This document shows positions 4,196 to 40,312 of a DNA stretch of 41,449 nt, one piece after another (the first letter of the stretch is position 1; every line of letters begins with the position of its first letter). The stretch comes from a virus. The notes beneath the pieces are model-generated. The model was not told the DNA's origin. It did no database searches and saw nothing but the letters and a program-made list of their open reading frames with translations. The stretch is taken from positions 1-41,449 of the IMG/VR virus record IMGVR_UViG_3300006919_000119. The stretch is one strand, 5' to 3'. Made by a program: the position numbers and the translations under genes.

Positions 4196-7100
4196 TTATT
4201 GGTGAGCATAACACCTTTTGTTCTTATTCTCAGTTTTGTTCTTACATCTCTTACCGTTAGTTTTAGTAGCTGTGCATCTATATTCTTTAACACCATCACC
4301 ATCCCTATCGTCTCCGTCTTTAAAATCTTTATGATGTGAACACTTCCAAGACTTAGCTTTTATTAGATCAGAATATAAACCACACTGATTTCCAACAGAA
4401 TTAGTTCCAGAACACTGTACTCTTTTATAACCTTCTTTTTCTAATCTTTCTTCTTCCTCTCTTTTATTTTTCTTTTTATCAGATGTTTTATTATTCTTAG
4501 CATCTTTCTTAGCCTGCTCCAGTTCTTCGTCTTTCACACCTATTTCCCACTTACTCCATCCTAAAGCTAAAGCTATCTTCTGCCACGTTAAATGATTACC
4601 AGTTATAGCTTCTTCTAAATTATTAACCTTTTTAACTATTCTCTGTGTTGGTACATTTGTTACAGCCTCTATTACACTAGCCCATTTATATAACGTAGGG
4701 TTCTCTATTCTAAAACCTATTTCTTCACTAACACCTTTATTATATTGCTCGGTTTTAATAGCATTGTATATTTTCCTTAACTTACTACCAATAGGTGGTG
4801 AAAAGTTTACTATCTCTAATAAAGTTCTACCATCTTCTCTATTCCAGTCTTTTTTATTTTGAATGTTATGTTGTATAATAGTATTCTTAGCTGTAGATAT
4901 AATAGCACCATACAAACCAGTACCACGTAAGAAAGAATCTAAAGCGCTATTAGCAACTCTTTGAGTTTTATTTTCTATCTCTTCTTCGTCGTCTCCCCAT
5001 AACATAAATGCTAAAGCAGTCTGTAAAGAAGCAAACACTATATTTTGAACAGCGCCGTAGTATATTATCTTAGACATGTTAGTCTTCCAATCACCCCTAC
5101 CGTTAATCAAATCTGATAAAGCTTTCTTAGTTAAACGAGTATACTGCATTGTAACGTTTTGAAATGCTAGTATTAATCTACCTATTACACTAGCCTGTTG
5201 TTTAGATATAAGATCTTCTCTTGACGACTGTTGAGTTTCTTCAGCGACTTCTTGGAAATCTAACATAGCCTTTTCGTTTGCCTCAACTTCAGAAAAGCCC
5301 TGCTTCAAATAAGTATTAAGTCTATTTCTATAAAGCGTAGCACCACCAAAAGATATAGCCATACTATCCGCTATCTGTGTTGGAGTAAATCCTTTTTCTA
5401 ATAACCAACTTATAACACCTTGAGCCTTACCTCTTCCTTCTTTAAATGCTCTAGATAACTCTGATGCGGAAACATCTATCTGTATACCAGTTCTTCTCTG
5501 TTTCAACATTGGAGAATTAAATATCATAGCAAAATCTTTCCAAAACTGTGGTTGATTAGCAAATGCTGCTGATGCTTTAAATATATTATTGTCGCTCCAG
5601 TTTATAAAGTTAACAGTTGATATAGTCTGTAGTATTGCAGACCTCATGTTAAAGAACATAATGGCACCAATAGAACCATTAATCCAGTTATATAATCTAT
5701 TAACTTGTCTATCAGGGCTAACTAATCTATTACCACCGTTTTCCATTCGGTACATAATGTTTTCTAAAGCCTCTCTAAATCCAGTACCATATAAAGCTTC
5801 TATTTTATTCATGTTCTCAGGGGTGAATATAGCTTCTGCGTTATGCAAGTATTCAGCTAAAAACTCTTTTCTTCCAACCTTGTTAACGACATTATTTAAA
5901 TCCATAGATATAGTACCTAAAGACCAGTGAGCGTCTGGCGCTACATAACCTTGTTGAGTTCTAGTTATATTACTTAATACATCAGCAAAACCTTTAACCT
6001 CAGTATCGTTATTAACAAAATCTATTAATTCATTTTTAGTAGCCTCATCTAATCCAGGTATAGTATGACCATGTTTATTCCACAAGTAAACACGTATAGC
6101 GGTATCAACAGTAAATGGTGTGCCTTCTACAGTATAGTTTAATATCTTAGTAACATTAGGTAAGCTTTTTCTTAACTGCTTATATTCATTAACCATTTCT
6201 TGTTTATAAATATTCCAAGCTCTAATACCTTTTGCGAATGGGTCTAGTAATTTTATCTTAAAATACTTCATGTGCATATTACCCTGTTGACCCTTACCTA
6301 AGAATCTGTATAATAAACCTCTAAAATCCTCAGCGGAAGGTGGTATAAATATTCTCCACCATCCTTTATGTTGTCCAGTTTTTTTAGCCTCAGCCGCAGA
6401 AAAAGTTCTACTTCTACTAGTTCCTTGCGATTCTTCTAATATAGTATTAAAGTTTTCACTAGCTGTTTTACTAAACTTAATTTTAGCTTGTACAACTTTA
6501 GATTTGATATCTAATTGATCTAATACGGTTTTAACAGCTTCAACATTAGGTAAAGCATCGTCGACAAAATACATATCATTATAACCTTCCGAAAACTTCT
6601 CTAACATCCACCGTGCTTTAGCCTCGCCTTTACCATCTCCTAATCCAGTTATGTTTTTAAATGGTATGTTTATACCTTTAGATTCTAACCAACCATGTAT
6701 AGCTGTATCTGAAGTCTGTGGTCTAGCCGTTAAAACAAAAACATTTTTAGGCCCATACTTAGCTATTTGATTTTTCATTTTTTGAAGTAATGGACCATCA
6801 ACTCCACCTCTTACGTTTACAAAATCATCAAAGTTAAAAGTGTAACCTTGATCAGCTAGCTCAGGGCCTAATAAAGGCCATTCGCCAGATTTTACATTTT
6901 GAGTTTCACCTGTATTAGGATTAGTTGCTACAACAAAGTTCTCACCATCTATAATTAACGTTTCATCAAAATCAAATGTAGACATACCTTTGCTAAACTT
7001 GTAACCTCTAGCCTCAAGGTCAGCTTGTATAATATCGTTTGCTTTTTTTCTATTCCCAGCAATTTTTTCAAAAGTTGTAGTAATAGGTTCAGCAGGTTTA

Positions 7101-10100
7101 TCAACAAACGTGTAACCTCTTTTTTCTAAATCAGCTTGAATAGCTTGATTTTGCTTTTTTCTGTTTTCAGCTATTTGATTAAAAGTTTGCAACACGCTTT
7201 TTCTAGAATTCAAAGATTTTTTTATATCAGCCTTTGAAGTTTTAACTACAATATCAGAGAATTTTTTTATAGTGTTCTTAGCTTTTGTTTTAGTTATAAC
7301 ACCTGTTAATTGCTTAACTATTAACTCGTTTTGTAGTGGTACCAAAAATTCTATTTGATTATCTGTTAAGTTCTTAATATCTACACCAACACCAAAGTAT
7401 TCTGTAAACGTAGTGTCAGCAGGTTCTCTTAACATTAACTCATTTAGATTGACACCTTGTACAGCCATTCTAACTATAGCAGCTATACCATCTGGTAAAC
7501 TAAGATCACCATTTAATACTCTAGGTAAGATCTTGTCAAATAAAATTTTTGTAGTTTTGCTTTTTAATTTCTCTGGTACACCATATATATTTTTACTACC
7601 ATCGTTTATTATATCGTCTGCTGCTATTTTTATAGGACCTTGCATAGCTATAGACCTTATACCAACAAAAGTTTCTTTAACATTGTTTTCAATAGCAGCG
7701 TATAACAACATCCCATGCACATCATTAGCCGGTGTAGAATGTTCTTCCCTCATGTTATCGGTAGTATTTAACTTTCTAGTTCTTTGGTCTACTGTATAAA
7801 ATCCATTTTTAAAATGAGTTCTAACAGAGTGCCCCATACCAGCAGCACCACTATCTTGAAGGAAAGATATCCACAACCAAGCATCATTAGGATTAGATTG
7901 TAACCACTCTTGAACAGCTATAAAATAATCTCTTAAATTATCTAACTTTCTATCTTCAATAAGTTTTTGTTTTTCCGTAAGCTTTGCTATACCTGATTTT
8001 TGTTTTAATTTACTGTTATAATAAAATCTAGGATTTGATATAACCTCAACACCTTTAGGCGCTTTTGGAACGTTAGCGTTATATTCATCGTTAACGCCAA
8101 ACGTAGATCTACTAATACCACCCATACCCATCAACCTATGTATCTCTCTAAACTTCATGTTATCTTTGGTATTTAAAAAGTCTCTAGTTACAGTGTACTT
8201 GCGATCATAAAACGTTTCTTCAGTTTCAGGATTATAAATTCCTCTAAATTGACTTTTATCTCCTTTATATTTCATTATAAACGGAAGTGGACTACCTGTT
8301 TTCTCCTTCACAAACCTAGCAAAGTCAGTAGCTGTCATGTCATTACCTCTATTGAGGGACTTAGCAAACATCATCGCTGGTTTACCAACGCCTACTTCAG
8401 CAGCTTGGTTATTAACTAAAGATCTAGCTTCTTGATTAGCTGCAAAAACTGAAGCTTGTGTTATAACTCCTTTAACAGCTCCATCATATTTTCTTTCTGC
8501 AGGCATTAAAGTAAAATCTGGATTAATACCAAACACCATTAATATATCAGTGTTGGCCATACGATCGACGTTTAAGGCTTTACCATATAAATTAGGAACC
8601 CTCATTTTACCATCTACATAAAACTCTTTTAATAACTTAGTGTTTATACCTATAGCTTTACCAGACTTAGGATTAAAATTAACGTTAGGTAATATAGAGT
8701 TAATAAACTCTTTAGGTCCTATTCTCTCCATGACCTCTGCTATTTTAGTTCTAGCAGCAATTGACTCTGGATTAGTTAACGTTTGCGGCTTAGCTAGTAT
8801 TGAGTTTGGGTTTACGCCAAATTCGTTAGTAGATATAGTTTCTAAAATAGGATATAAAACACCTGTAGGTTGTACTCTATTTTTTGATGTTTCATTTGGA
8901 TTAGCTTGAGACATCATATCTTCTTTCACATCTTCATACAACTTATTATCTACATCATAATTAATTTTTTCTAATGAACTACGTATAGGCGTAACTGTAT
9001 CTTCTTTAAAATTTAAGTTACTTGCTACAAACTGTGCTTTCTTTTTAGTCTTAAGTAAACCTTTCTTTTTTTGTATTTGTGTTTGTAAAGAAAGATCTTG
9101 TGTGTCAAAGTCGGCTTCAGGTTGAGTAGTATCTTGTACTTGTATTTGAGTATCACCTTGATCTATCTTAGTTTCTTGAGATGTTTGCTCAGCAGTTTTT
9201 ATACCTAATCTACGGGCTAAGCTTTGAGCCCTTAGATTTAGTCTATTACTAACAAACTGATCAAGTGGTTGTCTACCATTGTATTCGTTGTTAACTAATG
9301 TTGCAGCTTCATTTATTAAATCGGCTTGATAGCTTTGTCTAGATACACCAGCATCATCAGCTATATTTGTAGGTATAGGATCAAATAATCTTTGTGTTAT
9401 ATTTTGAACTATAGGCATTATCTCTTGACCAAACTCAGAATCTATAGTTGCTATATAATTCTTAAATTTATCTTCTCTATACGTCACTGGTCTACCATCA
9501 GCGTTTTTACGAACAGTTTGATTTATCATTCTTCTCGTATCACCATCAAACCTATCTAGCATGCCAGCAAGATTTGATTTAGCAAACTTCATTTCATCTG
9601 GCACGATAGTTGTATCAGCTGTAGCACTTACTATACCGCTACTTAAAGAACCTTTATGTATACTTCTATTATATTCTTTTAAGAACTCAAATACATCTTT
9701 ACCTGTATTAAACTTTATTTTCTTAAATCCAGCGGCTCTAAGTATAGGTAAAATAAAATCCATTAATGGTTGGAACACGCTTTCATTATAAGTAATGTCA
9801 CCAACGGCTATAGCATCGGACGTCAACGTAATCCACTCATCTGGATTTTGCGTCATATATTCCTCTGTGTATCCAGCTATTTCAACTCTTTTTTCAACAG
9901 TGGCCCATTGAGCACCTATTTGTTGTGATAAATCTTGTCTTATATTAGTGAATTGGTTTGGGTTAGCCTTCATCGATTTTCTAAGAATACCATGCAATAG
10001 TTCGTGATTACCTACATTAACAGCACCTGTAAATTGCGCTACTTGAGTATTAATTATCATTTGATCCTCATATACAAAACCATCTGAGTCCGCAGCTTCA

Positions 10101-11977
10101 TCACCATATGCTTTTCTTATTTCCTCTCTAGTTAAAGTATCATTATACTTTAAACCATATAATGCACTATGTTTTTTAGCAAACTCTAAATTACTTTTAA
10201 ACATACGTTCAGCTCTATCTTGATTAAACTCAGCAGCATCTTGCTCTATTGTTTGAGCCTCTGCTGAATTAGGATCTACTTGCCCTTGATACGGAGCTAG
10301 TATCTCTTCTATCTTAGAGTTGATATCGTCAAAATCTTTTCTAGCACCTGGCACAGCGAATACTCCAGACTTTTTTAAATCTTGCTCAGCTTTTAATCTT
10401 TTGTTTTCTAATTCAACTAAACGTTTTCTATCAGCTGGATCAGTTACTATAGCATCAATATTTAATTCTACGTTAGCATCATTTAACGCTTTATCAACAA
10501 TACCTTTTAGTGTGTCATCATTTGTTATTTCAGTGCTATTTAACACCTTCGCTTTCTCAGCTGTCGATAGATATTTACTGTTTACTATACTAAGAACTCT
10601 TTTCTTATTAACATCACCTCCATTGATTTTATATTTTCTACCCTTACTGTTATCAAGAATAATATCCGTATTGAATATAGCGGTTGGTCCTTCTAATATA
10701 CCTTCTAAAAATATCTCCTCACTATCCATATTCTCAAAACCTTTCTGAACACTGAAGCCATCTTGCTCTGCTATACCACCAGAAGTAAACTGCCCAACAG
10801 CCTCACCAGTAGCACCACCAACCATTTCAGTACCTGTCACCGCTGCAGCTGTAACGCCTTTAGACGCTGTCTTATTTAACACTGAAGTACCAACACCTCT
10901 TGCTACACCAAACGTTAATGCTTCTACTAAAGCAATACTCATACCTCTTGCTATAGCTTTCTGCTTCATTCTTTCCATTGCTTCCGCATCGTTAAGTATT
11001 ACCCTAACGTTGCCAGCTGTAAAACCATTTTCAAAGTCATTAGGGTCAACACCAAGGGTTTTTAACTCATCTTGTAATAGTTGACTAAATTCTAATCCAG
11101 ATTCCATAGCACCTATACCAGCACTATAAGCCCCACTAATAGCCCCATACTTCCCTGCTCCAAATTTTTTTCCAACACCATACCCACCAGCAGCACCAGT
11201 ACCTGCGGCAGCTAACATCTCTTCAGATCCAGACCCTAAAGAGTGTGCCATTGTTGATATAGATTTAGTCACCTCTAATAAACCATAGTCTATAGCACCA
11301 AATGGATCTTTTGCCGCAGCAACTATGTTACCCCATATACCACCACCTTCAGCTTCTTTTCTTTCTTTAAACTCTCTTACAGCCTCTGGCTCTTGTATAT
11401 TATTAACTTCTTCTATATCTTTTATAAAACTTTCTATTGTAGCATCATCAACGTTATTACCACGCCTCATTATATCAAAAGCTTCTTCTACAGATAAACC
11501 ACGTTTACCTTGTTTAAGCGCTAATGTAAAATCATTCATGAAACCACCGTCTTCTGGTATGTTATCATTTTCATCCGTCCATGTATCTAGATGTGTTCCT
11601 TTAGGGAAATCAGCTATTATAGCATCAGGATTTTGTTCTTCAAATAGTTTGGTATTTGTTACGTTTACCTTTACTATCTTGTTGCCCATTCTGTACTTTA
11701 CTAATCCCGCAGAACCAGTTTCCGAAGACAACCCCATATCTTGTTGTTGATTTTGTTGGGGCTGACTCGCCCCTTGTGACTTTCCCGGCTGTTCTCCTTG
11801 GTAGTTACCGTGATCCTCTTTACTTACATAACCCTTTTCTGGATCAGTAGTAAATGAAGTTTCTTTTTTCCACCATCCAGGTTTTTTAGTTTCAGCCATT
11901 GGATTTGCTTTGACAAAAGCTTCGATGTGCTCTGGCGCAACCTTTACGGTTTTACCATTTAATATAAATTCTTGCAT
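4196..11977 (-). CDS. Giant internal virion (ejection-type) protein with zincin-like and HAD-like domains
   Basis: This 2593-residue protein follows two ejection-type proteins and probably enters the host with the DNA (inference). Visible parts in order: two N-terminal copies of a 25-aa motif (residues 4-28 and 94-120); a Gly/Ala-rich, membrane-interacting-looking region (about 215-410); an HExxH motif H658-E659-LL-H662 with E714 as candidate third zinc ligand; Q-rich linkers (about 945-1000); a tandem 37-aa repeat (1599-1661); a HAD-like phosphatase domain with D1669-x-D1671-x-T, T1750 in VLTAR, K1783/K1787 and D1806-D1807; a long helical region (about 1850-2450) with hydrophobic stretches; and a basic C-terminus with two Cys3His modules (C2522, C2532, C2546, H2549; C2568, C2578, C2589, H2592) around a DRDGDG loop. 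It is far longer than T7 gp16 (about 1300 aa). Role as an ejected multi-enzyme protein is likely; each activity is predicted only. Confidence 0.85.
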   Translation of the reverse strand: MQEFILNGKTVKVAPEHIEAFVKANPMAETKKPGWWKKETSFTTDPEKGYVSKEDHGNYQGEQPGKSQGASQPQQNQQQDMGLSSETGSAGLVKYRMGNKIVKVNVTNTKLFEEQNPDAIIADFPKGTHLDTWTDENDNIPEDGGFMNDFTLALKQGKRGLSVEEAFDIMRRGNNVDDATIESFIKDIEEVNNIQEPEAVREFKERKEAEGGGIWGNIVAAAKDPFGAIDYGLLEVTKSISTMAHSLGSGSEEMLAAAGTGAAGGYGVGKKFGAGKYGAISGAYSAGIGAMESGLEFSQLLQDELKTLGVDPNDFENGFTAGNVRVILNDAEAMERMKQKAIARGMSIALVEALTFGVARGVGTSVLNKTASKGVTAAAVTGTEMVGGATGEAVGQFTSGGIAEQDGFSVQKGFENMDSEEIFLEGILEGPTAIFNTDIILDNSKGRKYKINGGDVNKKRVLSIVNSKYLSTAEKAKVLNSTEITNDDTLKGIVDKALNDANVELNIDAIVTDPADRKRLVELENKRLKAEQDLKKSGVFAVPGARKDFDDINSKIEEILAPYQGQVDPNSAEAQTIEQDAAEFNQDRAERMFKSNLEFAKKHSALYGLKYNDTLTREEIRKAYGDEAADSDGFVYEDQMIINTQVAQFTGAVNVGNHELLHGILRKSMKANPNQFTNIRQDLSQQIGAQWATVEKRVEIAGYTEEYMTQNPDEWITLTSDAIAVGDITYNESVFQPLMDFILPILRAAGFKKIKFNTGKDVFEFLKEYNRSIHKGSLSSGIVSATADTTIVPDEMKFAKSNLAGMLDRFDGDTRRMINQTVRKNADGRPVTYREDKFKNYIATIDSEFGQEIMPIVQNITQRLFDPIPTNIADDAGVSRQSYQADLINEAATLVNNEYNGRQPLDQFVSNRLNLRAQSLARRLGIKTAEQTSQETKIDQGDTQIQVQDTTQPEADFDTQDLSLQTQIQKKKGLLKTKKKAQFVASNLNFKEDTVTPIRSSLEKINYDVDNKLYEDVKEDMMSQANPNETSKNRVQPTGVLYPILETISTNEFGVNPNSILAKPQTLTNPESIAARTKIAEVMERIGPKEFINSILPNVNFNPKSGKAIGINTKLLKEFYVDGKMRVPNLYGKALNVDRMANTDILMVFGINPDFTLMPAERKYDGAVKGVITQASVFAANQEARSLVNNQAAEVGVGKPAMMFAKSLNRGNDMTATDFARFVKEKTGSPLPFIMKYKGDKSQFRGIYNPETEETFYDRKYTVTRDFLNTKDNMKFREIHRLMGMGGISRSTFGVNDEYNANVPKAPKGVEVISNPRFYYNSKLKQKSGIAKLTEKQKLIEDRKLDNLRDYFIAVQEWLQSNPNDAWLWISFLQDSGAAGMGHSVRTHFKNGFYTVDQRTRKLNTTDNMREEHSTPANDVHGMLLYAAIENNVKETFVGIRSIAMQGPIKIAADDIINDGSKNIYGVPEKLKSKTTKILFDKILPRVLNGDLSLPDGIAAIVRMAVQGVNLNELMLREPADTTFTEYFGVGVDIKNLTDNQIEFLVPLQNELIVKQLTGVITKTKAKNTIKKFSDIVVKTSKADIKKSLNSRKSVLQTFNQIAENRKKQNQAIQADLEKRGYTFVDKPAEPITTTFEKIAGNRKKANDIIQADLEARGYKFSKGMSTFDFDETLIIDGENFVVATNPNTGETQNVKSGEWPLLGPELADQGYTFNFDDFVNVRGGVDGPLLQKMKNQIAKYGPKNVFVLTARPQTSDTAIHGWLESKGINIPFKNITGLGDGKGEAKARWMLEKFSEGYNDMYFVDDALPNVEAVKTVLDQLDIKSKVVQAKIKFSKTASENFNTILEESQGTSRSRTFSAAEAKKTGQHKGWWRIFIPPSAEDFRGLLYRFLGKGQQGNMHMKYFKIKLLDPFAKGIRAWNIYKQEMVNEYKQLRKSLPNVTKILNYTVEGTPFTVDTAIRVYLWNKHGHTIPGLDEATKNELIDFVNNDTEVKGFADVLSNITRTQQGYVAPDAHWSLGTISMDLNNVVNKVGRKEFLAEYLHNAEAIFTPENMNKIEALYGTGFREALENIMYRMENGGNRLVSPDRQVNRLYNWINGSIGAIMFFNMRSAILQTISTVNFINWSDNNIFKASAAFANQPQFWKDFAMIFNSPMLKQRRTGIQIDVSASELSRAFKEGRGKAQGVISWLLEKGFTPTQIADSMAISFGGATLYRNRLNTYLKQGFSEVEANEKAMLDFQEVAEETQQSSREDLISKQQASVIGRLILAFQNVTMQYTRLTKKALSDLINGRGDWKTNMSKIIYYGAVQNIVFASLQTALAFMLWGDDEEEIENKTQRVANSALDSFLRGTGLYGAIISTAKNTIIQHNIQNKKDWNREDGRTLLEIVNFSPPIGSKLRKIYNAIKTEQYNKGVSEEIGFRIENPTLYKWASVIEAVTNVPTQRIVKKVNNLEEAITGNHLTWQKIALALGWSKWEIGVKDEELEQAKKDAKNNKTSDKKKNKREEEERLEKEGYKRVQCSGTNSVGNQCGLYSDLIKAKSWKCSHHKDFKDGDDRDGDGVKEYRCTATKTNGKRCKNKTENKNKRCYAHQ
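6995..7183 (-). repeat. Tandem 37-codon repeat inside the giant gene
   Basis: Residues 1599-1624 and 1636-1661 of the giant protein are two copies of the pattern F-x-x-I-A-x-N-R-K-K-x-N-x-x-I/A-QADLE-x-RGY-x-F, starting 37 codons apart. The second copy ends directly before the HAD-like domain. The copies differ at several positions, so the duplication is old or has been diversified; it is probably a paired helical linker. Confidence 0.85.
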
Positions 11978-38502: not shown

Positions 38503-38760
38503 TTATTCTACTATAACTATATCTCTAGCACGTATCACCCTGTACATATTATCGTTATAAGCAATATCGTGCCCAGCAATAGCATCATAATATATACTAT
38601 CACCAGTTTTAACCACTCCCACCAGTTCTCCGACAGAAATGATATTAGCTTTTTTATACCTGTTTGTTTCATCTGTATCATCTGTTAATATGAAGCCACC
38701 TACTTTTTTAGGTCCCTCTTTTATTATATCTATTATTACATAATCGTTAACTGCCTGCAT
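38503..38760 (-). CDS. groES: GroES-like co-chaperonin
   Basis: This 85-residue protein matches GroES in order of elements: VNDYVIIDIIKEGPKKVGGF (the D-x-V-I-V start and mobile loop with GGFIL), KKANIISVGE, VKTGDSIYYD and RVIRARDIVIVE (the conserved end DIL-AIV). It is about 10 residues shorter than typical GroES (about 95-97). It would cap the phage GroEL. It overlaps the end of groEL by 14 bases, so it is translated from within the groEL message without a clear Shine-Dalgarno. The order groEL-groES is reversed from bacterial operons. Family call strong for a phage form. Confidence 0.88.
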   Translation of the reverse strand: MQAVNDYVIIDIIKEGPKKVGGFILTDDTDETNRYKKANIISVGELVGVVKTGDSIYYDAIAGHDIAYNDNMYRVIRARDIVIVE

Positions 38761-40312
38761 TTTCTACTCTTATATTTGATATTACACAATCTGCTGACAT
38801 AATAGTTAAAGCTACACTTACAGCATTCTTAAGTGCAGACTTAGTCACAAGTACAGGATCAATAATACCTTCATCAATCATCTTAACATACTCACTAGTT
38901 ATAACATTACAACCATAACCTTCTTTCATACCAGTATTAAGTTTCATACCAGCATTATCAATAATAGTTTCATACGGTGAAGATAAAGCATCAAGCAACA
39001 CCTTACCAGCTCTGCTGGTCGAAATTTTTTGAGATGCGTTTAACAACGCAATGCCACCACCTGGAACTATACCTTCTTGCAAAGCAGCTTTAGTTGCGTA
39101 TATAGCATCTTCAACTCTATCTCTCTTCTCTTTTAATTCAACCTTAGAATTAGCACCTACTCTTATTATACCAACGCTACCAGATAACATAGCTAATCTA
39201 TCTTCAAGTTTCTTTTTTATAAACGCATTTTGCTCTTTAGCTAATTGTTTATTTAAATCATCTATTCTATCTTCGATATTTTCTGTCATACCTTCTAAAG
39301 TTAACACAGTATTTTTATCATCAGTAACGCAGAAGTCAGCCTCACCTAAATGATCAGGCTTCATTAAATCTAAATCATCGCCTAGCTCTTCATTTATTAC
39401 TGTAGCCCCCGTCAATATTGCTAAATCTTCTGTAGCATCTTTCTTAGTAGGACCAAAGCCTGGCAAATCAATGATATTAACTTTAATAGTACCTTTTACT
39501 TTATTCATAAGTAGTGCAGCTTTAACTTGCTGTGCCACTGGCGCTATTATAAGTAACGCTCTATTATTTTTAATGACATATTCTAATATAGTTTGTATCT
39601 TACGTACATTAGGTATTTCAGATGAACATATAAGCACTAATGGGTTATCAAGTTCACAATTTTGTTTTTCTGTATTAGTAACAAAATGTGGAGATGTTAA
39701 ACCACAATCAACTTTTACACCATCGACTACGTCGACATACGTATCCTCTGATTCACTCTCCTCCATAAGCACTACACCGTTTTTACCAACTTTATCATAA
39801 GCTTCAGCTATAATAGCTCCTAGCTTATAGTCGTTGTTACAAGATATAGCACTAACAGATTTAAGCATATCACCTTCAACATCAATAGATATATTATTAA
39901 GATATTTAATAACATCTTCTAGTGTTTCATTAACCCCATCTTTAATTTCTCTGATTGTAAGACCTTCTGCGACCGCAGCGTCTACTTGCTTGATTATTGC
40001 TTCAGCTAATACTGTAGCAGTTGTTGTACCATCACCAGCATCTTTAACTGTATTTCTGGCAGCTTCTTTGATTAGAGTTGCACCCATATTTTCTACCGAG
40101 TCATATAAGACTACGCTTTCTGCAACGGTTACTCCGTCTTTTGTTATGACCGGTTTGCCTCTCCCATCTTCATAGATAACACATTTTCCTGATGCACCTA
40201 ATGTTGATTTAACGGCTTGGGCTAACTTATTAACTCCGGTGATAATTCTATTTTTAGCTTCACCACCGAAGTCTAAGTTTTTTACCAACTCATTTGGTAA
40301 ATTATATTCCAT
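38747..40312 (-). CDS. groEL: GroEL chaperonin, phage-encoded
   Basis: The 521-residue protein is a complete GroEL-type chaperonin and would fold phage or host proteins, probably including the capsid protein (inference). It keeps the ATP-site signature (DAGDGTTTATVLA; D94 corresponds to E. coli D87), KPVITKDGVTVA, the catalytic aspartate D402 in RVEDAIYAT (E. coli D398), the PGGG turn (417-420) and GIIDPVLVTKSALKNA (482-497). The apical domain shows RALLIIAP and IDLPGFG. It ends without the usual GGM-repeat tail and is about 27 residues shorter than E. coli GroEL (548), partly in the equatorial region after residue 430. The start follows an A/T-rich leader. Intact motifs suggest an active protein. 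Confidence 0.95.
   Translation of the reverse strand: MEYNLPNELVKNLDFGGEAKNRIITGVNKLAQAVKSTLGASGKCVIYEDGRGKPVITKDGVTVAESVVLYDSVENMGATLIKEAARNTVKDAGDGTTTATVLAEAIIKQVDAAVAEGLTIREIKDGVNETLEDVIKYLNNISIDVEGDMLKSVSAISCNNDYKLGAIIAEAYDKVGKNGVVLMEESESEDTYVDVVDGVKVDCGLTSPHFVTNTEKQNCELDNPLVLICSSEIPNVRKIQTILEYVIKNNRALLIIAPVAQQVKAALLMNKVKGTIKVNIIDLPGFGPTKKDATEDLAILTGATVINEELGDDLDLMKPDHLGEADFCVTDDKNTVLTLEGMTENIEDRIDDLNKQLAKEQNAFIKKKLEDRLAMLSGSVGIIRVGANSKVELKEKRDRVEDAIYATKAALQEGIVPGGGIALLNASQKISTSRAGKVLLDALSSPYETIIDNAGMKLNTGMKEGYGCNVITSEYVKMIDEGIIDPVLVTKSALKNAVSVALTIMSADCVISNIRVENAGS

Follow-up and report, generated by a model that had tools for sequence, protein, structure and literature searches.

Among the closest described counterparts of the protein analysed here are the polyvalent proteins (Iyer et al. 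2017, PMC5512222), giant multidomain proteins encoded near late genes, with a zincin-like HEXXH metallopeptidase as their commonest domain and other domains that are exchangeable, and which are presumed to be packaged and ejected. Giant virion enzymes that are ejected into the cell are also described for N4 and crAss-like phages, where they are RNA polymerases (PMC12633501, PMC10136315). As for phosphatases, T4 Pnkp (PseT) and bacterial Pnkp1 combine an HAD domain bearing DxDxT with a P-loop kinase in one chain, while T5 Dmp, a deoxynucleoside-5'-monophosphatase, is a phage HAD-type phosphatase active at the start of infection as a free enzyme, its gene being on the first-step-transfer DNA. 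Fusions of an HAD phosphatase with polynucleotide kinase are also described in jumbo-phage RNA repair, in passages that do not assign them to virions (PMC7824862).

Here we describe an HAD domain that sits inside a giant, likely virion-borne phage protein. The window, that is, the whole stretch of DNA analysed, corresponds to an IMG/VR virus record with a length of 41449 bases. We give a probability of roughly 0.4 to the reading that the locus encodes a virion-borne, end-healing HAD 3'-phosphatase module of a polyvalent ejected protein, in which we infer the substrate, the packaging and the ejection, and which builds on the computed fold model, active-site conservation, embedding in a giant ORF, slot exchange and nested kinase in relatives. 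The open-access PubMed Central papers searched contained no earlier description of an ejected phage protein with an HAD module, with or without a nested kinase; relative to those papers, both the placement of an HAD domain in a swappable slot of a giant, probable virion protein and the insertion of a kinase within the HAD domain of relatives are new.

Genomic context and the giant late protein

The terminase and portal of the window match those of podoviruses of Flavobacterium, Cellulophaga, Tenacibaculum and Maribacter, as well as MW202828, a circular podovirus genome from Manatee Spring; judged by these matches, the phage is an uncultured podovirus and kin of Bacteroidota phages. Its late operon runs from terminase and portal through virion structural proteins to an ORF of 2593 amino acids (4196-11977, minus strand, as are all features of this protein given below), the last large gene of the operon and the one that carries the HAD domain. 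The giant ORFs of complete relatives encode 2135-3601 amino acids (n = 64), and the domain lies within a large ORF in 80 of 80 loci, these being the best 80 of 260 matches. Contigs of two metagenome-assembled genomes (Sphingobacteriales and Maricaulis) also carry an HAD-bearing giant and are probably phage sequence binned with bacteria (L087 and L088). Elsewhere in the window, a phage GroEL was found at 38747-40312 (phrog_5725, E = 1.4e-133), and the small ORF beside it (38503-38760) may be GroES, by its position.

As in the polyvalent proteins, multiple unrelated domains are found in one large polypeptide near the late genes. A zincin-like patch (9548-10060) contains HELLH at residues 658-662 (9992-10006), an HEXXH motif that was read directly in the window protein and is also present in relatives; the patch had no Pfam match, and its match to elemo gp21, seen with HMMER filters off, vanishes by default and was discarded. 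Two copies of a linker repeat, IAxNRKKxNxxIQADLExRGY, recognised in the sequence, lie immediately upstream of the HAD domain (7001-7174), and a Cys/His-rich tail (residues 2515-2593, 4199-4435), likewise read from the sequence, possibly binds zinc. What sets the window protein apart from the polyvalent proteins is the HAD domain ahead of a constant C-terminal module. The main text of PMC5512222 mentions neither a phosphatase nor a haloacid-dehalogenase domain; no LPD domain was recognised by Pfam in the window giant.

The giant ORF occupies the same late-operon position as the terminal giants of elemo, phi38:1, phi18:3, Panino and MW202828; those of elemo, phi38:1 and phi18:3 are structural proteins, and that of MW202828 is a giant ORF. 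In phi18:3 the positional equivalent, gp123, is labelled 'structural protein, experimental MS/MS' in the Cellulophaga phage record, and it matches the same PHROG as phi38:1 gp101. At the sequence level, residues 250-520 (10418-11230) are homologous to elemo gp21, the annotated terminal structural giant (E = 2.8e-16, with no matches in reversed or shuffled controls), and phrog_32588 matches residues 146-510 (E = 2.5e-26); Gly and Ala together make up 47% of residues 250-300. Homology of residues 250-520 to phi38:1 gp101 and phi18:3 gp123 appeared only with HMMER filters off, with heavy composition bias in phi18:3, and because the default filters leave only elemo gp21, we rely on that protein alone for the N-terminal homology. 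The window-type HAD domain is absent from all five terminal giants. In Maribacter phage Panino, the last late giant (L085:13229-18718) has a tRNA methyltransferase domain (phrog_4752, E = 1.7e-16), an RNA-directed enzyme in a similar position.

The preliminary description had taken the HAD-bearing protein for a probable ejected virion protein. The virion half of that statement is upheld indirectly, by late-operon position, homology to elemo gp21 and the MS/MS label of the phi18:3 counterpart, and we consider it likely that the giant is a virion protein. Ejection is probable by analogy with polyvalent proteins (PMC5512222) and with the virion RNA polymerases (PMC12633501, PMC10136315); in contrast to the latter, no RNA polymerase domain was recognised in the window giant.

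A complete HAD active site inside the giant protein

The preliminary description had placed four HAD motifs in order inside the giant protein, and each was found where it had been proposed, with one correction in motif III. The domain (residues 1663-1834, 6476-6991) was delimited from Pfam, alignment, AlphaFold2 and Foldseek results. Motif I, D1669-F-D1671-E-T1673 (6959-6973), would supply the nucleophile and the acid/base Asp; motif II is VLTAR at residues 1748-1752 with T1750 (6722-6736, from sequence and alignment); motif III is K1787 (6617-6619); and motif IV is D1806-D1807 (6557-6562), part of VDD at residues 1805-1807 (6565-6557). In a conservation set of 189 related domains, with a minimum identity of 41% and a median of 57% to the window, T1750, R1752, K1787, D1806 and D1807 are found in 189/189. 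Motif I is invariant in every ungapped row, D1669 and D1671 being Asp in 182/189 with the other 7 rows gapped, and T1673 being Thr in 184/189 with the other 5 gapped. For motif III, K1783 and K1787 had both been named; since K1783 is variable (Lys in 13/189), the motif III lysine is K1787.

Profile and structure comparisons agree on the fold. Pfam DUF2608 matches 78 of the 78 members tested (alignment A1) at E <= 1, with a best value of 2e-6, and scores 23.5 bits against the window domain for a cut-off of 22.6, the matches spanning mostly the motif III-IV part; we take DUF2608 to be a member of the HAD clan. The structure-model check proposed for the HAD core came out in its favour: the AlphaFold2 model (pLDDT 80, pTM 0.69) predicts the HAD strand order with the motifs at strand ends, and the leading Foldseek matches in the PDB are mostly HAD enzymes, with Ceg4 first (E = 5e-4), which together describe a predicted Rossmannoid HAD fold. 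PDB sequence searches with the domain gave no believable match, and named phages searched by sequence with the HAD domain or the whole protein gave none. Taken as a whole, the evidence far exceeds chance similarity to short motifs, and on conservation and modelling the window domain almost certainly has an HAD fold with an intact active site.

The same conservation bears on whether the domain could be a non-catalytic relic that the virion protein retains as a spacer or for its structure. The domain lies next to a conserved module that is probably structural, and structural constraint could account for its own conservation, but catalytic residues that show no variation in 189 domains with identities as low as 41%, and relatives that manage without the domain, make such a relic scarcely probable. 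The Foldseek results likewise bring up a protein phosphatase that would be injected and would act on a phosphoprotein of the host, as the best PDB matches of the window domain are the Legionella HAD effectors Ceg4 and Lem4 and haloacid-dehalogenase-type HADs. Ceg4 and Lem4 are presumably phosphotyrosine phosphatases. We regard this role as quite improbable, given that the identity to Ceg4 and Lem4 is 13-15% at a modest TM-score of about 0.44, that fold similarity inside the HAD superfamily does not fix the substrate, and that the class of kinase nested in the HAD domain of some relatives acts on nucleic acids or small molecules.

Scans of IMG/VR viral contigs gave 260 tblastn-confirmed stretches with the window domain (of which the best 80 were kept), at least 554 with the HAD domain of a divergent relative, and 32 with a kinase-bearing segment; these three sets overlap, were not deduplicated and cannot be summed. 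The HAD module is thus not rare in IMG/VR.

Short F[SA]K motifs flank the HAD domain in the window (6458-6478 and 6980-7000) and in relatives. They occur in 27% of 113 flanks upstream, against 3% in shuffles, and in 50% downstream, against 9%; because these flanks are homologous and no clear enrichment was seen next to the zincin patch, we did not adopt F[SA]K as a processing site, which is only a lead, and a linker is possible.

A kinase nested within the HAD domain of relatives

In a group of relatives with divergent HAD domains (L089-L096 and L100), DFDDT is kept and a P-loop kinase of about 200 amino acids stands between the motif I hairpin and the remaining cap, so that motifs I and II are 277 residues apart instead of about 70-90. 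The window's own HAD domain is without a nested kinase; compared by eye, side by side, its cap turn at residues 1687-1692 (6902-6919) matches the place of insertion in these relatives. The nested-kinase scan returned 32 loci, 30 of which were parsed by pattern and keep a constant spacing of motifs II and IV, several of these loci being the same contigs as in the first group (L216 = L091, L245 = L089). Both Pfam AAA_33 and Zeta_toxin match the nested kinase above cut-off, AAA_33 scoring as well or better, and AAA_33 had no match in any of the 35 records from relatives that lack the nested kinase, where no end-healing partner is thus apparent.

Among PDB structures, the model of the kinase-HAD composite (pLDDT 83, pTM 0.67) is matched best by Pnkp1, from the Pnkp1/Rnl/Hen1 RNA repair complex (E = 2.7e-9), and by T4 Pnkp (E = 6e-8), over about 360 columns; the TM-scores are low (0.24-0.33 for the full-length matches, normalised to the query), which a different arrangement of the domains would lead one to expect. 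Such a difference is seen in the chain itself, where the relatives' kinase is inserted inside the HAD domain after motif I and not fused in front of it as in T4 Pnkp and Pnkp1; the window domain differs further in having no kinase and in forming part of a probable virion protein, where T4 Pnkp and Pnkp1 are free enzymes. Among NCBI families, TIGR04075 (bacterial Pnkp) gives weak matches in 21/26 members and is the family matched by most, and TIGR01663 (PNK-3'Pase) gives weak matches in 4/26. The likeness to polynucleotide-phosphatase-like enzymes that had been suggested for the window domain is independently supported by its kinase-bearing relatives, whose best matches are Pnkp1 and T4 Pnkp; the window domain itself is structurally nearest to Ceg4, Lem4 and haloacid-dehalogenase-type HADs.

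The nested kinase also resembles zeta-toxin-type and adenylate kinases, and it might instead belong to a metabolite switch, with a zeta-toxin-like kinase phosphorylating a UDP-sugar or nucleotide in the relatives, their HAD domain reversing the reaction, and kinase-less HAD domains such as that of the window countering a kinase of the host or a rival. The name UDP-N-acetylglucosamine kinase is carried by a related protein of an uncultured virus, and the Zeta_toxin match above cut-off fits as well; set against the equal or better AAA_33 scores and PDB matches that favour polynucleotide kinases, we hold such a switch to be very improbable. In Pelagibacter phage HTVC008M (L134:4209-8402), a homolog of the nested kinase occurs as a free protein, and nearby lie a DUF6267 protein that has a KWDG motif and a DUF5824 protein resembling cytidylyltransferases.

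Slot exchange ahead of a constant C-terminal module

When the window protein was aligned with 64 complete relatives and identity was averaged per 50 residues, residues 1-1650 had mostly 0.06-0.26, the HAD domain 0.72-0.76 and residues 1851-2500 0.40-0.74. The HAD domain is thereby the most conserved block of the protein, a result that is partly selection because the relatives were collected with the HAD domain as query. The C-terminal module (residues 1857-2500, 4478-6409) is conserved in relatives with and without the HAD domain. A search with this constant part gave 45 loci, 17 of which matched the C-terminal part and not the window-type HAD profile; two of the 17 (L118 and L129) are on contigs that end at the module or shortly before it on the upstream side, leaving 15 with upstream sequence and no HAD domain. 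The motif I pattern was absent from all 12 HAD-less slot loci that were read out of these 15. Slot sequences differ among the HAD-less loci, and the independent cases number fewer than 15 because some loci are near-copies of each other, L112 and L126 having identical slot sequence.

Two of the HAD-less slots (L124 and L127) have GxD...EVK patterns, noted by eye, that are suggestive of a PD-(D/E)XK nuclease; neither had a Pfam match. Another domain, unassigned and without a Pfam match, shows a GAxxxxH-type stretch and, after it, EH(A/S)-like residues in the window (7811-7849, residues 1377-1389), and by eye it seems to recur upstream of the HAD domain or in its place (L114, L119, L121 and L122).

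Relatives that keep the HAD domain differ in which part they share most closely with the window. Identity is 80% in the C-terminal module and 58% in the HAD domain for L089, 77% and 55% for L090, and 68% and 83% for L002. The incongruence of these pairwise identities points to an exchange of the slot between phages. Overall, the sequence comparisons argue for an HAD domain that occupies a swappable slot before the constant C-terminal module, a feature that the preliminary description had not noticed.

Substrate of the phosphatase and its role in infection

In pairwise hhalign comparisons, the HAD profile aligned best with the phosphatase domain of T4 Pnkp (E = 3.7e-4, over 54 columns only and from a low-diversity alignment), followed by T5 Dmp (E = 0.011), with unrelated controls at 0.3-0.6. 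Together with the composite model, this gives moderate support for a polynucleotide-end role; that polynucleotide 3'-phosphatase is the main activity of the domain is a tentative proposal to which we give somewhat less than even odds. An injected nucleotidase would instead dephosphorylate mononucleotides or nucleotide second messengers at entry, serving nucleotide salvage or blunting nucleotide-based immunity. T5 Dmp offers a parallel, as it removes 5'-phosphates from deoxynucleotides early in infection and dmp sits in the first-step-transfer region; viral fold matches include a deoxynucleoside-5'-monophosphatase and HAD fusions named nucleotidyltransferase or deaminase; and nucleotide-targeting domains, e.g. 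InPase, are proposed in polyvalent proteins (PMC5512222). With the hhalign match to T5 Dmp weaker than that to T4 Pnkp, and the relatives' inserted kinase structurally closest to polynucleotide kinases, a nucleotidase seems to us unlikely.

Co-occurrence with an RNA ligase was considered and rejected. PF09414 matched in 16/44 records, but two of these proteins were examined and both are ATP-dependent DNA ligases with a better match to DNA_ligase_A_M; because of this, and because DNA ligase is present in 33/44 records whatever the slot contents, the RNA ligase link was dropped. No RNA ligase was recognised in the records examined, and a T4 RNA ligase family search had no match anywhere, its controls also being silent.

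In the end-healing reading, the giant 'polyvalent' virion protein of these Bacteroidota podoviruses would probably travel in the phage head and be ejected along with the genome. Its N-terminal part, with homologs in related virion proteins, may have a packaging or delivery role; the zincin-like peptidase patch and variable domains would come next, then the HAD slot and the constant C-terminal module. The protein might be cleaved by its own zincin-like patch, as self-cleavage by such a domain is proposed for polyvalent proteins (PMC5512222), and proteolysis might in this way release the HAD domain. Inside the cell, the domain would strip 3'-phosphates from nucleic-acid ends, as polynucleotide kinase-phosphatases do, with 2',3'-cyclic phosphates perhaps opened first. 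The 3'-phosphate ends would come from host nucleases that cut DNA or tRNA, and broken phage DNA or host tRNA would thereby be readied for re-ligation; T4 PseT heals such ends together with T4 RNA ligase, according to database record notes. A phage DNA ligase, which is usually encoded and is not tied to the HAD domain, could later seal healed DNA ends.

Extended to the family, the proposal would be that virions of Bacteroidota podoviruses contain an end-healing module, an HAD 3'-phosphatase with or without a nested kinase, that comes in along with the genome and mends cut DNA or tRNA ahead of any phage gene expression, from a slot that reassorts with nuclease-like and other domains; in this full form we consider it doubtful. 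Provided that the HAD module is active and is injected, it would counter DNA- or tRNA-cutting defences ahead of expression, as a delivered protein and not as an early gene, and the exchangeable slot would be a handle for comparing the cargo that such virions deliver.
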